Part shown: piece by piece, positions 47,945 to 62,378 of the stretch
How positions within the stretch are numbered: the first letter of the stretch is position 1
How the letters are laid out: every line of letters starts with the position of its first letter
NCBI RefSeq assembly: GCF_014696925.1
Contig: NZ_JACJQY010000009.1
Location: 62,001-126,000, forward strand
DNA length: 64,000 nt
Reading direction: 5' to 3'
Source of the DNA: Phormidium tenue FACHB-1050
GTDB lineage: Bacteria; Cyanobacteriota; Cyanobacteriia; Pseudanabaenales; Pseudanabaenaceae
Program-made: the position numbers and the translations under genes
The notes under the pieces: model-generated
Told to the model about the DNA's origin: nothing
Database searches by the model: none
What the model saw: the letters and a program-made list of their open reading frames with translations, nothing else

Positions 47945-48024
47945 TCGTCTATGGCGAGAAACCGATAAATTGGTTTTTGTTCAGTTTTTATCTAAATATT
48001 TGCCAAACTCAAAATCTGTCCCCT

Positions 48025-48873
48025 ATGAAATCGCCTAAGCAGTCAGTATCGCAACAGTTAATGTCTATTGGTATCGTGATTAGCGTTGTTTTTTTGCTGA
48101 TGGCGATTCTTGCGCCGTTCCTGCAAGCCATAGGGGTGTTAACTAATCCCAGTGAATTTCTCAGCAATCCGATCCATCAGCCACCATCACCACAACATTG
48201 GTTTGGCACAGATTTACAGGGGCATGATGTATTTACAAGGACGATAGCTGGTGCTGGTGTGGCATGGCAAGTAACGATCGCCTCAACGGTAATTAGCTTA
48301 GCGATCGGCGTGCCCTTGGGGATGCTAAGCGGCTACAAAGGAGGCTGGCTGGATCGCGGGTTAGTCTTTCTCATGGATGCGCTGTACACCTTGCCCAGTT
48401 TATTGCTGTCGCTGACGATCGCCTTTGTAGTCGGTGCGGGTGTCTGGAATGCCGCGATCGCTCTCAGTGTTGCCTATATCCCTCAGTATTTTCGAGTAAT
48501 CCGCAATCAAACCGTAAGTACGAAAACCGAGGTGTATATCGAAGCTGCTCAAGCGATCGGTGCGGACACGAAAACGATCTTGATCAAATATCTCGCGCCT
48601 AATGTGATCCAAAGCTTACCCGTAATTTTCACTCTCAATGCTGCTGATGCAATTCTGACTCTGGCAGGTTTAGGATTTTTAGGTTTAGGCATTCCCGAAG
48701 ATGTCCCTGAATGGGGTCACGATCTCAAGCAAGCTCTCGATGCGCTCTCGACTGGCGAAAATATCTGGTGGACAACGGTTTTCCCTGGTTTGGCGATTAC
48801 TTTTATGGCGATCGGTTTATCGCTAGTAGGTGAAGGCTTGACTCAGAAATTTAGTAGCAAGAAGGATCAATGA
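48025..48873 (+). CDS. ABC transporter permease, DppC/OppC type
   Basis: 282 residues from ATG 48025 (MKSPKQSVSQQLMSIGIVIS); an in-frame ATG at 47977 would add 16 unlikely residues. Six hydrophobic helices, an N-terminal periplasmic segment HWFGTDLQGHDVFTRTIAGA typical of dipeptide/oligopeptide or nickel permeases, and the cytoplasmic EAA loop in EAAQAIGADTKTILIKYLAPN that contacts the ATPase. No partner permease, ATPase or binding protein is adjacent, so the substrate cannot be assigned. Confidence 0.88.
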   Translation: MKSPKQSVSQQLMSIGIVISVVFLLMAILAPFLQAIGVLTNPSEFLSNPIHQPPSPQHWFGTDLQGHDVFTRTIAGAGVAWQVTIASTVISLAIGVPLGMLSGYKGGWLDRGLVFLMDALYTLPSLLLSLTIAFVVGAGVWNAAIALSVAYIPQYFRVIRNQTVSTKTEVYIEAAQAIGADTKTILIKYLAPNVIQSLPVIFTLNAADAILTLAGLGFLGLGIPEDVPEWGHDLKQALDALSTGENIWWTTVFPGLAITFMAIGLSLVGEGLTQKFSSKKDQ

Positions 48874-48885
48874 GCTTATATAGCT

Positions 48886-49284
48886 ATGTATTTCGACTTC
48901 CTTATTCCTAAACGCCCCGTATCTTTGCAAACAAGAAAAACCGCAAATTTACAAGCATGGAAACAATATGTTCGCACCGAAGCTGCAAAAACTTGGACAG
49001 GTCAAATTTTTGCGAATCAAGATGTTTACCTAAAATTGATTTATCTTTATGATAGCGATCCTGTTGATACTGACAACATCATTAAACCAATCCAAGACGC
49101 ATTGATTGGGCTGATTTACGCAGATGATTTACTGATTACAGATGTAGAAGCCCACCGTCGTTCACTATATGGAGTGTTTGACCTAACCCTATGCCCAACT
49201 CCTCTTGTTCAAGGCATAATATCAGGCATAGAATGTGTATATGTTAGAGTTTCTGAATCTAAACCATTGGAGGACTACTTATGA
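48886..49284 (+). CDS. RusA-like Holliday junction resolvase
   Basis: 132 residues. The RusA catalytic pattern DPVDTDNIIKPIQDAL followed by YADDLLITDVEAHR supplies the clustered aspartates for metal-dependent cleavage of Holliday junctions; an N-terminal PKRPVSLQTRKTANLQAWK matches the family. RusA genes are usually carried by phages or accessory islands. The start is 12 bp after the ABC permease stop, but the product overlaps the following gene by 4 nt and probably belongs with it. Confidence 0.85.
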   Translation: MYFDFLIPKRPVSLQTRKTANLQAWKQYVRTEAAKTWTGQIFANQDVYLKLIYLYDSDPVDTDNIIKPIQDALIGLIYADDLLITDVEAHRRSLYGVFDLTLCPTPLVQGIISGIECVYVRVSESKPLEDYL

Positions 49285-49970
49285 CTGTTGATTCTCAATT
49301 AGTGGAAAAGGGTTTAGGCACTAAATTTTCAGAAAAAGATAGATTGCAAGGAATTGCAGAAAAGTATAGATTGCAAGGATTTGAAGTTGTAATCGAGCCG
49401 TCTAAAACCTTGATTCCTTTTAACTTAGGAAATTATCGTCCAGATCTTATTGCAAGAAAGGGATCGGATGAAGGTTATATAATTGAATTTAAAAACTCAA
49501 TTGCTAAAATCTCAGTCGATCGCTATCGAGAAATTGCCGAAATAGTTGCTCAGCATCACGGTTGGAGATTTTTATTGATCACTGGAGAAGATGTCTCTTC
49601 GGAAGATCCCCAAAATGATAGTGAATTGATGACTTGGGAACAGATGTTGCAACGCCAAGAACAGGCTCAAAAGTTTTTAGCGATCGGAGAAATGGAAGTT
49701 GCCTTTTTGTATTTATGGGGAGTTTTGGAAGCTGCCATGCGTCGTCAAGCTAGGCAAGTTGCAATTCCGATAGAACGCTTTCCTGCTAACTCTTTGATTA
49801 ATCATTTGTATTCTCAAGGCGAGCTTTCGATGGAACATTTTGATCAAGTAAGAGTAATTCAAACTGTACGTGATCGCTTCATACATGGCTATCTAATGCC
49901 TAATCTTGATGAACCTACAAAACAATTGCAAGTGCTTGTTAATGAATTAATTGCAATGTGGAAGATCTAA
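49281..49970 (+). CDS. PD-(D/E)XK nuclease-like protein with C-terminal HEPN motif
   Basis: 229 residues, no membrane segment. The N-terminal half reads NYRPDLIARK (Pro54-Asp55) and GYIIEFKNS (Glu69-x-Lys71), a textbook PD-(D/E)XK spacing, in a core resembling REase-like domains of defence genes. The C-terminal half is all-helical and contains VRDRFIHGY, an R-x4-H motif (Arg197, His202) diagnostic of HEPN domains, many of which are RNases. The start overlaps the RusA-like gene by four bases. I infer a combined DNA/RNA-targeting accessory protein. Its last eight codons and stop are in the left arm of a perfect 27-bp palindrome. Confidence 0.7.
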   Translation: MTVDSQLVEKGLGTKFSEKDRLQGIAEKYRLQGFEVVIEPSKTLIPFNLGNYRPDLIARKGSDEGYIIEFKNSIAKISVDRYREIAEIVAQHHGWRFLLITGEDVSSEDPQNDSELMTWEQMLQRQEQAQKFLAIGEMEVAFLYLWGVLEAAMRRQARQVAIPIERFPANSLINHLYSQGELSMEHFDQVRVIQTVRDRFIHGYLMPNLDEPTKQLQVLVNELIAMWKI

Positions 49971-50009
49971 ATCTATGCTGACAGATTTAGATCTTCCACA
50001 TTGCAATTA
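49948..50009 (+). terminator. perfect 27-bp palindrome copying the end of a gene
   Basis: Arms 49948-49974 and 49983-50009 are exact reverse complements separated by 8 nt. The left arm is coding: it holds the final codons (LIAMWKI) and TAA of the nuclease-HEPN gene; the right arm repeats that coding DNA inverted. Confidence 0.88.
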
Positions 50010-50077
50010 GTGAAACGTCAGTCGGCAAAGGCTTAACTCATAGATTTAGTGGCAATAAAACTGAATCGCAACACTAA

Positions 50078-51412
50078 ATGAAGAATACTAAAAACAATAT
50101 GGCACAGAGTAAAATCGATGAATCTTTTCAGGAGATAAGATCACTAATTGATTTTTTGAAATCGAGAACTGAAGCTCCTACGGAAAAAATACTTTCACTA
50201 TATTTTGAACGTCACGAACTAGGCAGCTTGCACTTAGATTATGAAGAGGCTTCACGTTATCATAAGTGCCTAAGGAATCTAATAAAAAATTCAGTTAAAG
50301 ACAATGACTTAAGCCTAAAGAAGGTAGAAAATGCTTTTCAAGAGACTTTATTAAAAGCACTATGCGTGAATACTAGTTCTATTTCTGAAGATTTAAGAAT
50401 TAGTGAAATCCTACAAAATTTGAAGCAAAAAATTACTGCTAAACGAATTACATACCGTTGCTATATTCCAATATGCGGAATAAGTGAGAGAGGTCTACCT
50501 TTATCAATAGGACAAATTGAATTTATTGTTTTTGACGATCTTCTTGTCAATCATTTCCAAGAAATAGTGGCAAAACATCCAATTCAAAAAGAAGATAAAT
50601 GGAAAACGCTTAAAAATAATATTGATACGAGTTTCTATGAAAAAGTATTTAGTGTAGTCACTGTAGAAGCAAAAGATTATGAATCAGCACAAGTAATCGC
50701 AATCAAAAAAACACGAAAAATTCTAGACATACTTAATTTTTTTAGCGCATTAGTTCCATACAATCCTGATGCTTGGGCATACTTGTCGGGAGACTCAGGA
50801 TCACATTTGTTTGAAACAATTATACTAAATGAAGATGATGGAGTCAGTTTAAATATTGGTAGAAAGCGGCTCGGTTCGTTACAGAAACTTGAAATCCTAA
50901 GAATTATAGAATCAGATGAAAAAGACAATATTGGCTTTAGTCATATTAACAATCTTCTAAAGAAAAACAATCTAAATAAATTTGAACAAGCTTTGATTAC
51001 CGCTATACAGTGGATAGGAAGAGCCGTTATCGCTAATAGACGAGAGGATGCATTTCTCTTTTACGCTATTGCACTTGAAAGTATTGTATTAGTAGACAAC
51101 GAAAAAGCTGAGTTGAGTTATCGTTTGCGGATACGAATTGCTCATCTGATTACAAGTAACCCAAAGAATCGAAAAGAAGTAGTGAATGCTGTAAGAGAAC
51201 TTTACAATCTACGCTCAAAGCTCGTTCATGATGGAAAGTATGAGATAACTGACCTAGAGCTAAATTCTATGAAATTTATATCCATACGTTGTATTCAACG
51301 TTTATGTATTGACCCTAGATTCCAAAACATTACTTCTCCAGAAGATTTTTCTGACTGGTTAGAAGATCAGATTCTTGCTAATGTCATTGAGAAATCCGAT
51401 ATTACAGTGTGA
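50078..51412 (+). CDS. protein of unknown function with C-terminal Apea-like HEPN domain
   Basis: 444 residues, soluble, AT-rich compared with housekeeping neighbours. The N-terminal about 280 residues are not recognised. The C-terminal part (about 300-410) reads FYAIALESIVLVDNEKAELS, YRLRIRIAHLITS and LYNLRSKLVHDGKY; the R-x4-H motif (Arg379-His384) and preceding helix pattern fit Apea-like HEPN domains, suspected or proven RNases in defence proteins. A second ATG at 50099 gives MAQSKIDES and is an alternative start. It follows the nuclease-HEPN gene by 108 bp. A role in phage defence is inferred from domain and context only. Confidence 0.7.
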   Translation: MKNTKNNMAQSKIDESFQEIRSLIDFLKSRTEAPTEKILSLYFERHELGSLHLDYEEASRYHKCLRNLIKNSVKDNDLSLKKVENAFQETLLKALCVNTSSISEDLRISEILQNLKQKITAKRITYRCYIPICGISERGLPLSIGQIEFIVFDDLLVNHFQEIVAKHPIQKEDKWKTLKNNIDTSFYEKVFSVVTVEAKDYESAQVIAIKKTRKILDILNFFSALVPYNPDAWAYLSGDSGSHLFETIILNEDDGVSLNIGRKRLGSLQKLEILRIIESDEKDNIGFSHINNLLKKNNLNKFEQALITAIQWIGRAVIANRREDAFLFYAIALESIVLVDNEKAELSYRLRIRIAHLITSNPKNRKEVVNAVRELYNLRSKLVHDGKYEITDLELNSMKFISIRCIQRLCIDPRFQNITSPEDFSDWLEDQILANVIEKSDITV

Positions 51413-51461
51413 TCACCGATCTTGTGGTGCGATCGCTGATTTTCTTTGAAAGATTAATGGC

Positions 51462-51504: not shown

Positions 51505-51732
51505 GTGAGCCAAGCAGAAATTACAGAATCTTTGCTAACTAGCAAAGGCTTTTATAGCCTATTTCAAACCTTACCATTAGAAATCCGACAAGGCTTTCTA
51601 CAGCTTTTATTTCAAAATAATTCCGCCGAATTAGAGGACTCTATCCTATATTTAGCTTGTGAAAACTCCCGCAATGAAGGCTTTTTATCTGAGTTAGAGT
51701 CACAATCTCTCTTGGAGAGTTTGCCTCAATGA
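51505..51732 (+). CDS. putative antitoxin paired with RelE-type toxin
   Basis: 75 residues starting at GTG 51505 with AGAAGGAAA upstream. MSQAEITESLLTSKGFYSLF is followed by acidic helices; no DNA-binding motif is recognised. Small size, acidity and a 4-nt ATGA overlap with the downstream toxin gene support an antitoxin role. Confidence 0.65.
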   Translation: MSQAEITESLLTSKGFYSLFQTLPLEIRQGFLQLLFQNNSAELEDSILYLACENSRNEGFLSELESQSLLESLPQ

Positions 51733-51998
51733 AATATCAAATCGCTAAACGCTTCAAAAAAGATTTAGACAAAATCAATGATCGCAAAATTCTTGCAAAA
51801 GTTAGAAAATGTATTGAATCAATTGCAACTTCTCAAACACTGTCCGAAATTCCCGATCTTGAGCCACTAAAAGGATTTTCGGGATACTATCGCATTAGGT
51901 TCGATTATAGCTATCGTATTGGAATTTTCTGGGATGGAGAAGTTATTGAAATCCTCAAAATAGAGAGTCGCGAAGGATTCTACAAAAATTTTCCTTAG
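51729..51998 (+). CDS. RelE/ParE superfamily toxin
   Basis: 89 residues. MKYQIAKRFKKDLDKINDRK, PLKGFSGYYRIRFDYSYRIG and ILKIESREGFYKNFP give the RelE/ParE fold: two helices, then the strand with the basic YRIRFDYSYRI patch. RelE-type toxins cut mRNA on the ribosome; ParE-types inhibit gyrase, and sequence alone does not decide. Translation is coupled to the upstream gene through a 4-nt overlap. Confidence 0.85.
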   Translation: MKYQIAKRFKKDLDKINDRKILAKVRKCIESIATSQTLSEIPDLEPLKGFSGYYRIRFDYSYRIGIFWDGEVIEILKIESREGFYKNFP

Positions 51999-61025: not shown

Positions 61026-62378
61026 ATGCGACTCATGCAACTCCTACCAAGTGTTATGCCTCAAAATTGGCAAGAAAATAATTTTAGGCATAATCTTAAA
61101 CATAGCTTTAGGCAAATGTGGCGATCGCGCAAACGTTTTTTGTCATTTCTTTTTGTCGTAACTTTTGCAATCACAATATTTTTACATAGTCTTATTCCTG
61201 CGTTTTTGGTGAATGATCAGGCGATCGCCCAAATTAAATCACAAATTCCGCAGTTGAACCAACCCATCATTCCACCAAGTCCACCCATCAATCAGCCAGT
61301 AGACAAGCGCCAAGAGATTCGGGGCGTATGGCTAACCAGTAACGACTTCTCAGTAATTCGAGATCGTCAACAGCTTAGTAAAGCTCTCAAGCAACTCAAG
61401 CAACTCAATTTCAACACCATCTATCCTGTTGTCTGGAATTCAGGCTATGTGATGTATCCCAGTACGGTCGCCCAAGAGGCAGGAATTCAGCCCTTTGTCT
61501 ATCGCGGGTTGGAAGGACAGGATATTGTTGAAGACATCATCGCTCAGGGGCATCAAAATAATTTGTTGGTGATGCCTTGGTATGAGTTTGGATTCATGGC
61601 TCCCCAAATGTCTGAGCTGGCGATCGCCCATCCAGATTGGCTCACCCAACAACGTAATGGCGATAAAACTTCAATCACAGCCGCAGGTGAAGTTGCATGG
61701 CTCAATCCTTTTCATCCTGAAGTGCAGCAGTTTTTGACTGACCTTATATTGGAAGCTGTCTCTAAGTATGATTTAGATGGTATCCAGTTTGACGATCACA
61801 CCAGTCTTCCCAAAACCTTTGGCTACGATCGCTACACTCTCAATCTTTATCGTCAAGAAACTAAAAAAGAAGCTCCCGCCGATGTGAACAATCCTGAATG
61901 GGTACGTTGGCGAGCTAACAAGATTACGGCTTTTATGGCAAGACTAAGTAAAGCCGTGAAGCAAAGAAAGCCCAATGTAATTTTCTCAGTATCTCCCAAT
62001 TATCATGACTTCGCCTATAGGCAACAGTTACAAGACTGGCTAAGCTGGGTGCGTCAAGGCTTTGTTGATGAATTATTGGTGCAGGTATACCGCGATGACC
62101 TAGATGATTTTCTGTCTCAAATTAGTCGTCCTGAAATTGTGGAAGTACAAGGTAAAATTTCCACTGCGATCGCCATTCTCTCTGGACTCCGCAATAGTAA
62201 TGTGCCGATGTCTAGGGTCTATTCTCAAGCTGTAAATGCTAGAAATCGCGGGTTAGGGGTTTCTTTCTTTTATTACAAGAGTTTATGGGGCTATGGGCCA
62301 GAATCTATTGCCGATCGCCAAAGGGATTTTCAATATCTATTCCGCAGTCCTGCGCCAAGGTTTGCCAATAGGAATTGA
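61026..62378 (+). CDS. glycoside hydrolase-like protein, GHL10 (DUF187) family
   Basis: 450 residues. A basic cytoplasmic N-terminus and one hydrophobic helix (about 38-62, FLSFLFVVTFAITIFLHSLI) anchor or export it; a Pro-rich linker follows. The catalytic barrel starts EIRGVWLTSNDF and contains LKQLNFNTIYPVVWNSGYV, LLVMPWYEFGFM, DLDGIQFDDH and FSVSPNYHDF, the pattern of family GHL10/DUF187 enzymes. The acid residues in DGIQFDDH are the likely catalytic site. Substrate is unknown, probably a cell-envelope polysaccharide. Confidence 0.9.
   Translation: MRLMQLLPSVMPQNWQENNFRHNLKHSFRQMWRSRKRFLSFLFVVTFAITIFLHSLIPAFLVNDQAIAQIKSQIPQLNQPIIPPSPPINQPVDKRQEIRGVWLTSNDFSVIRDRQQLSKALKQLKQLNFNTIYPVVWNSGYVMYPSTVAQEAGIQPFVYRGLEGQDIVEDIIAQGHQNNLLVMPWYEFGFMAPQMSELAIAHPDWLTQQRNGDKTSITAAGEVAWLNPFHPEVQQFLTDLILEAVSKYDLDGIQFDDHTSLPKTFGYDRYTLNLYRQETKKEAPADVNNPEWVRWRANKITAFMARLSKAVKQRKPNVIFSVSPNYHDFAYRQQLQDWLSWVRQGFVDELLVQVYRDDLDDFLSQISRPEIVEVQGKISTAIAILSGLRNSNVPMSRVYSQAVNARNRGLGVSFFYYKSLWGYGPESIADRQRDFQYLFRSPAPRFANRN

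Follow-up and report, generated by a model that had tools for sequence, protein, structure and literature searches.

A 64,000-nucleotide stretch of the genome of Phormidium tenue FACHB-1050 (positions 62,001 to 126,000 of contig NZ_JACJQY010000009.1, forward strand; hereafter referred to as the window, with coordinates counted from its first nucleotide) harbors two overlapping genes, rusA and ahjr-hepn, which, as judged from comparative sequence analysis, constitute a genuine conserved two-gene pair found across five phyla. The first gene (48886..49284, + strand) encodes a RusA-family Holliday-junction-type endodeoxyribonuclease of 132 residues, and the second (49281..49970, + strand) encodes a protein of 229 residues in which an AHJR-like PD-(D/E)XK domain is fused to a HEPN domain. 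We propose, with somewhat less than even confidence, that the two genes specify a translationally coupled nuclease module in which the sensing of DNA structure would be wired to an RNA-degrading effector.

Conservation and active sites of the gene pair

The association between the two genes was assessed in a set of 116 distinct full-length AHJR-HEPN proteins, 112 of which were accompanied by sufficient upstream DNA. A RusA gene was located directly upstream of ahjr-hepn in 69 of these 112 cases, and 48 of the 69 displayed the same overlap as the window, where the four shared nucleotides reported in an earlier note on this DNA were confirmed as ATGA at 49281-49284. Among cyanobacterial loci outside Pseudanabaena, RusA was immediately upstream in 23 of 26. 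Beyond the cyanobacteria, the pair was encountered at loci labelled Chloroflexota, Planctomycetota, Thermodesulfobacteriota, Methylococcaceae, and Duganella, several of which derive from metagenome bins whose taxon labels may be in error. On plasmids of Rhizobium and Azospirillum, annotated RusA genes overlap an AHJR-HEPN partner recorded as "hypothetical," and a listing for an Agrobacterium plasmid names RusA and AHJR-HEPN side by side.

Distances among the RusA proteins correlate with those among their AHJR-HEPN partners (Mantel rho of 0.88 for 63 pairs, with 0 of 999 permutations as high). In the AHJR-HEPN tree, of which 23 of 109 inner branches are weak and some branches are long, copies with a RusA neighbor are found in all parts, and the large RusA-less group is a single nested clade of 19 members. 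Because of this distribution, the pairing looks ancestral.

The fusion encoded by the second gene is already known: a table in a 2013 survey (PMC3710099) lists HEPN-M/DUF86 (HepT) domains as occasionally fused to an archaeal-Holliday-junction-resolvase-like restriction endonuclease, an architecture (PF18743) which the 229-residue protein shares. The main text of that survey never mentions RusA and names no RusA partner, whereas the gene in the window possesses one. As no description of a RusA partner of AHJR-HEPN was found in the open-access literature searched, it is this partner which, within that literature, appears to be new.

The 132-residue protein matches PF05866 (E value of 8.8e-7, 30 bits against a cut-off of 22.8) and resembles other RusA proteins both in this family match and in its conserved acidic residues. 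RusA is known from lambdoid prophages, as a stand-alone resolvase, and the protein of the window differs in being coupled to AHJR-HEPN instead. Residues D61, D63, N64, K67, D71, and D81 are kept in 62 to 63 of the 63 RusA proteins linked to AHJR-HEPN; the acidic residues D61, D63, and D81 are presumed to be catalytic by reference to E. coli RusA, onto which they were mapped by pattern only. Comparison of the RusA sequence with PDB chains, at E values up to 1, returned no match. A candidate RusA fusion of 815 residues at locus L185 (L-numbers designate the loci and G-numbers the genomes compared) was rejected as an artefact of a masked run.

The 229-residue protein was assigned to the AHJR-like family PF18743 with an E value of 2.5e-21 (76 bits against a cut-off of 26.1). 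In its AlphaFold2 model, built from 36 sequences with a predicted local distance difference test (pLDDT) score of 79.9, the N-terminal half aligned, using VIA-align, to VRR_NUC 4qbn (Z of 8.6) and to the Hjc resolvase 1gef (Z of 7.7). The C-terminal half aligned to HEPN 2hsb (Z of 12.9, root mean square deviation of 2.9, 116 residues aligned), with many HEPN chains at the top of the ranking, and also to HepT 6m6w (Z of 11.6) and Csm6 RNases (Z of about 11); Foldseek alone gave no match below an E value of 0.001. The predicted structure comprises an AHJR-like half (residues 17-121, with P54 D55, E69, and K71; 49329..49643, + strand) and a HEPN half (residues 115-229, with R197-x4-H202; 49623..49967, + strand), so that the HEPN fold suggested in the earlier note appears to be borne out for this protein.

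The motif residues listed in that note are present as described, namely, P54-D55, E69, K71, and R197/H202 in the 229-residue protein and R379/H384 in the 444-residue product of the next gene downstream. Such motifs alone are near chance level and constitute weak evidence: when each protein was shuffled 5000 times, R-x4-H arose in 1410 shuffles for the 229-residue protein and in 2029 for the 444-residue protein, and a PD...[DE]xK pattern arose in 229 of 5000 shuffles. They are regarded as credible here because family matches, folds, and conservation back them. Across the 112 distinct AHJR-HEPN proteins, the HEPN arginine/histidine pair is kept in 108 and the PD-(D/E)XK triad (D55, E69, and K71 in the window) is intact in 80; in view of these counts and of the conservation of the RusA acidic residues, the RNase-type HEPN site and the RusA site look essential and the AHJR site less so.

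In the RusA-less clade, 4 of 19 members have an intact triad, versus 76 of the 93 copies outside it, yet the HEPN arginine/histidine pair is present in 19 of 19, which argues that selection maintains the HEPN part; any p-value attached to this clade is overstated, since its 19 copies represent one evolutionary event. The clade occupies a fixed chromosomal position in about 20 Pseudanabaena genomes, beside a gene for a 439-residue product which we take to be leuC; the RusA-less paralogue was noted at loci L061, L064, and L084 as well as at the Pseudanabaena loci. In the interpretation preferred here, the AHJR DNA site can be dispensable, and the RusA-less paralogue, with its decayed triad and invariant HEPN residues, is possibly a domesticated HEPN protein.

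Variant architectures were also observed. In Nostocales, AHJR-HEPN is often extended at its C-terminus. At loci L119, L163, L166, L167, L178, L180, and L189, it carries about 150 to 210 extra C-terminal residues, which are ParE-like in one group and, by eye, antitoxin-like in another; the ParE-like resemblance is weak (Pfam E values of 0.0044 to 0.07 and a best PDB match of 0.12). The extended genes are followed by PIN genes at L166 and L167 and by a SduA_C gene at L163. At L099 and L100 (genomes G057 and G046, respectively), RusA precedes a short gene that encodes only AHJR, lacks HEPN, and has altered motifs (LD and E-x-R); it is possibly a HEPN-less relative.

Predicted function and competing explanations

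The proposed coupling of DNA sensing to RNA degradation builds on the observed pairing, gene order, overlap, spread across phyla, folds, and conserved active sites, from which we infer a mechanism. RusA would cut branched or Holliday-type DNA, and the AHJR domain would bind, and often also cut, DNA of the same kind. Engagement of such DNA by RusA or AHJR would switch on the HEPN domain, which, once activated, would cleave RNA and thereby bring growth to a halt. In the arrangement that we favor, the role of effector falls to the HEPN RNase, with both resolvase-like parts acting on the DNA; the most likely use of such a module would be against invading or recombining foreign DNA. A more specific form of this proposal, possible but doubtful, is that RusA-AHJR-HEPN represents an undescribed two-gene immune or stress module of at least five phyla, in which the two resolvase-like folds would recognize Holliday-type branches and license the HEPN RNase, and in which lineages losing RusA would keep the RNase while the DNA site decays. 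The pair is of interest as a widely conserved union of a DNA-junction nuclease with an RNA-cutting fold that is absent from PADLOC, and, if the proposal were true, the switching of a HEPN RNase by DNA could be addressed with two small proteins.

Several results weigh against a sensor-effector module serving in immunity. None of five window proteins matched a PADLOC model (0/5), and the neighbors of 16 cyanobacterial loci matched 42 PADLOC families (93 open reading frames) versus 185 in control regions of the same genomes (92 open reading frames), which indicates no defence enrichment, although the number of families matched is a coarse measure in that one restriction enzyme matches about 20 models. 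No relative was found in the viral contigs and phage records searched. In Nostocales, the position of the pair is constant and its inheritance appears to be vertical, the order being a DHH gene, DUF29, rusA, ahjr-hepn, sometimes PIN or SduA_C genes, and then a His_Phos gene and citrate synthase. Furthermore, 43 of the 112 AHJR-HEPN copies lack or have lost a neighboring RusA, and overall the AHJR triad is not significantly more often intact where RusA is present (53/69 with RusA versus 27/43 without; Fisher p of 0.13).

Because the matched control was negative, defence is put forward here as a hypothesis and not as a result. The "compact defence island" envisaged in the earlier note is likewise not upheld: the site is a cassette hotspot, but there is no excess of defence families around the pair elsewhere in cyanobacteria. 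An earlier uncontrolled scan, in which 117 neighbors chosen from 216, with most Nostocales left out, matched 222 families, had seemed encouraging and is not counted here in support of enrichment. Conflict genes do occur beside single loci, comprising a type IIG enzyme, a DpdE-like gene, and a restriction endonuclease at L158, a type IIG enzyme and HEC-03B at L174, and a BrxD-like ATPase at L156, and the Rhizobium plasmid locus L261 carries AbiEii and restriction genes near the pair. The ParE-like or antitoxin-like extensions of Nostocales copies, the PIN or SduA_C genes that follow them, and the likeness of the HEPN half to HepT/MntA toxins and Csm6 RNases also speak for the proposed module.

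The absence of defence enrichment would suit a chromosomal recombination or repair module, in which RusA and AHJR would provide a back-up resolvase and HEPN would only dimerize, bind RNA, or trim RNA at R-loops, as would the fixed Nostocales position between the DHH/DUF29 genes and the His_Phos/citrate synthase pair and the constant site at which about 20 Pseudanabaena genomes carry a RusA-less copy. Such a role is nevertheless considered unlikely in light of the patchy distribution of AHJR-HEPN (39 of 386 cyanobacterial genomes), the retention of the catalytic HEPN residues (108/112), the placement of sequences from other phyla among cyanobacterial ones in the tree, and the loss or replacement of rusA at the hotspot described below.

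It is improbable that the genes form a toxin-antitoxin pair with AHJR-HEPN as the toxin and RusA as the antitoxin or regulator. The two genes are small and overlapping, the pair is present on plasmids, and the HEPN half resembles HepT toxins, its alignment to HepT 6m6w being a point of likeness to the MNT-HEPN (MntA-HepT) system. In contrast to that system, however, no nucleotidyltransferase partner is present, the partner in the window being a nuclease, and RusA-less copies persist. As 42 of the 43 RusA-less copies retain the HEPN arginine/histidine pair, RusA appears not to be needed to survive AHJR-HEPN, and the nuclease residues that RusA itself retains would be unexpected in a mere antitoxin.

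Gene content and turnover at the permease hotspot

The 3' end of the ABC permease gene preceding rusA (47977..48873, + strand) is an insertion hotspot. The window comes from a Pseudanabaena genome. The permease gene was found in 25 of 26 genomes of this genus, and the content downstream of it, rich in small nuclease- and toxin-type genes, is different in nearly each. Comparison of these 25 loci, two of which (G004 and G014) offered less than 120 bp behind the permease, placed AHJR-HEPN there in 12 (the G021 copy having internal stops), full-length RusA in 5, and the 444-residue gene in 2 (the window and G008).

Between the second and third genes of the window lies a displaced 59-nucleotide copy of the permease gene end (50000..50058, + strand), which is 71% identical to 48805-48863 and of which 46 bp are 84.8% identical to the permease tail of G005. 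Displaced permease tails were likewise identified in three other genomes: a stretch of 114 bp in G008, one of 87 bp in G024, and, in G012, three pieces that extend as far as 309 bp back. In each case the tail is closer to the permease of another genome than to its own, in G024 by little. In G001, G012, and G016, the ParE pair is followed by a copy of the ahjr-hepn 3' end, and the RusA-less copies of G001, G003, G015, and G019 retain the last rusA codons before the ATG. Together, these displaced tails, 3' copies, and leftover codons show that insertions and replacements have recurred at the 3' ends of genes. With its natural succession of insertion, scarring, and loss, the hotspot offers material for the study of cassette turnover in cyanobacteria. 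Restriction-modification genes can insert with a long target duplication. The present arrangement is similar in that the cassette follows a gene and is bounded on its far side by a duplicate of part of that gene, but it differs in that the tails are diverged and sometimes nearer to the permease of another genome. In G007, locus L042, also located behind the permease, joins the start of RusA to the end of AHJR-HEPN and is what a deletion has left of the pair.

A perfect inverted repeat without strand assignment (27-nucleotide arms and an 8-nucleotide loop; 49948..50009) spans the ahjr-hepn stop codon and adjoins the permease remnant. Its predicted fold has an energy of -46.2 kcal/mol (z of -10.5), and the 11 further loci compared lack such a repeat at their 3' ends; its appearance suggests either a scar of template switching or a terminator specific to this lineage.

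The tails could alternatively indicate a selfish recombination element, in which RusA and AHJR would drive their own insertion at gene 3' ends and so generate the displaced copies, which lie beside cassettes in 4 of the 25 loci (window, G008, G012, and G024); the ahjr 3' end copies behind the ParE pair would be in keeping with this. It is rated as quite improbable: the G008 site has a permease tail but no AHJR-HEPN, the tails also mark the ParE cassette, and the target duplication was examined within Pseudanabaena only.

The 444-residue protein and other neighboring genes

Three tandem same-strand open reading frames of 132, 229, and 444 residues are present in the window as the earlier note described, the third extending over 50078..51412 (+ strand). 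They are followed by a separate cassette consisting of a 75-residue toxin-partner gene (51505..51732, + strand), which has no Pfam, NCBIfam, or PADLOC match, and a ParE/RelE-type toxin gene of 89 residues (51729..51998, + strand; PF05016, E value of 1.5e-7). The wider flanks also correspond to that description, with hisA-like and ABC permease genes upstream (both names being those of the earlier note) and, beyond the toxin pair, a kinase-like gene of 2160 residues downstream.

The earlier note had grouped RusA, both HEPN proteins, and the RelE pair; within this grouping, RusA and AHJR-HEPN stand as a real pair, but the 444-residue gene and the RelE pair are not members. Co-occurrence of the 229- and 444-residue families, the absence of which that note had itself named as refuting its proposal, fails at several levels. 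Only in the window do both lie behind the permease, and in G008 the 444-residue gene follows a small gene pair and a permease tail, with no AHJR-HEPN at the site. Among 58 relatives, the AHJR-HEPN query matched 33 genomes and the 444-residue query 11, mostly via the HEPN part, with a close copy of the latter (87%) in G008 only. In the 386 cyanobacterial genomes, AHJR-HEPN was detected in 39 and the 444-residue query in 7 (remote or own matches); 3 genomes were common to both, and in the two other than that of the window the genes are separated by about 620 kb or occupy different contigs. Therefore, the 444-residue gene is not considered part of the unit, and, because the displaced permease piece separates it from ahjr-hepn, it is placed outside the RusA-AHJR insert. 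A three-gene defence unit accompanied by the RelE pair, suggested by the tandem same-strand arrangement in the window, is contradicted by both observations and is very improbable; the sequence comparisons indicate instead that the hotspot which received RusA-AHJR-HEPN also houses the 444-residue gene and the ParE/RelE pair, each as an independent cassette. No link between the ParE cassette and AHJR-HEPN is claimed, the comparison (6/12 versus 1/11 loci; p of 0.07) leaving out the two loci with less than 120 bp behind the permease.

The 444-residue protein has no Pfam match of its own at E values up to 1. The name "Apea-like" given to it previously is not sustained, as PF18739 is not matched; a 19%-identical homologue scored better with HEPN_MAE_28990 (2.4e-4) than with HEPN_Apea (0.028), all of these values being under the cut-off. 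A model poorer than that of the 229-residue protein (7 sequences; pLDDT of 64) aligned best, over residues 298-420, to the HEPN toxins 8yuf (Z of 10.1) and 8xdj (9.8) and over 298-417 to 2hsb (9.6), Z values below the level advised for helical bundles, with HEPN chains ranking 1 to 4. R379 and H384 are invariant in 7 sequences sharing 13 to 87% identity. The HEPN assignment consequently survives in part, in that the C-terminal domain is predicted to be HEPN-like, whereas Apea family membership is not supported and the model reaches a pLDDT of only 64.

At the end of this gene lies a copy (51411..51434, + strand) of a 24- to 26-bp repeat seen 3' of the stop codons of several hotspot cassette genes. 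With up to 2 mismatches, the repeat was found at 23 places in 26 genomes, 10 of them at the permease hotspot, compared with 0 for a reversed control, and 14 of 34 looser matches were near a stop codon versus 9.7% expected. It is always on the strand of the hotspot cassette genes, often directly 3' of the stop codon. Small genes of a single cluster (C3), which we take to encode REP-associated transposase-like proteins, occur near the permease hotspot in G022, G016, G010, G013, G009, and G024.

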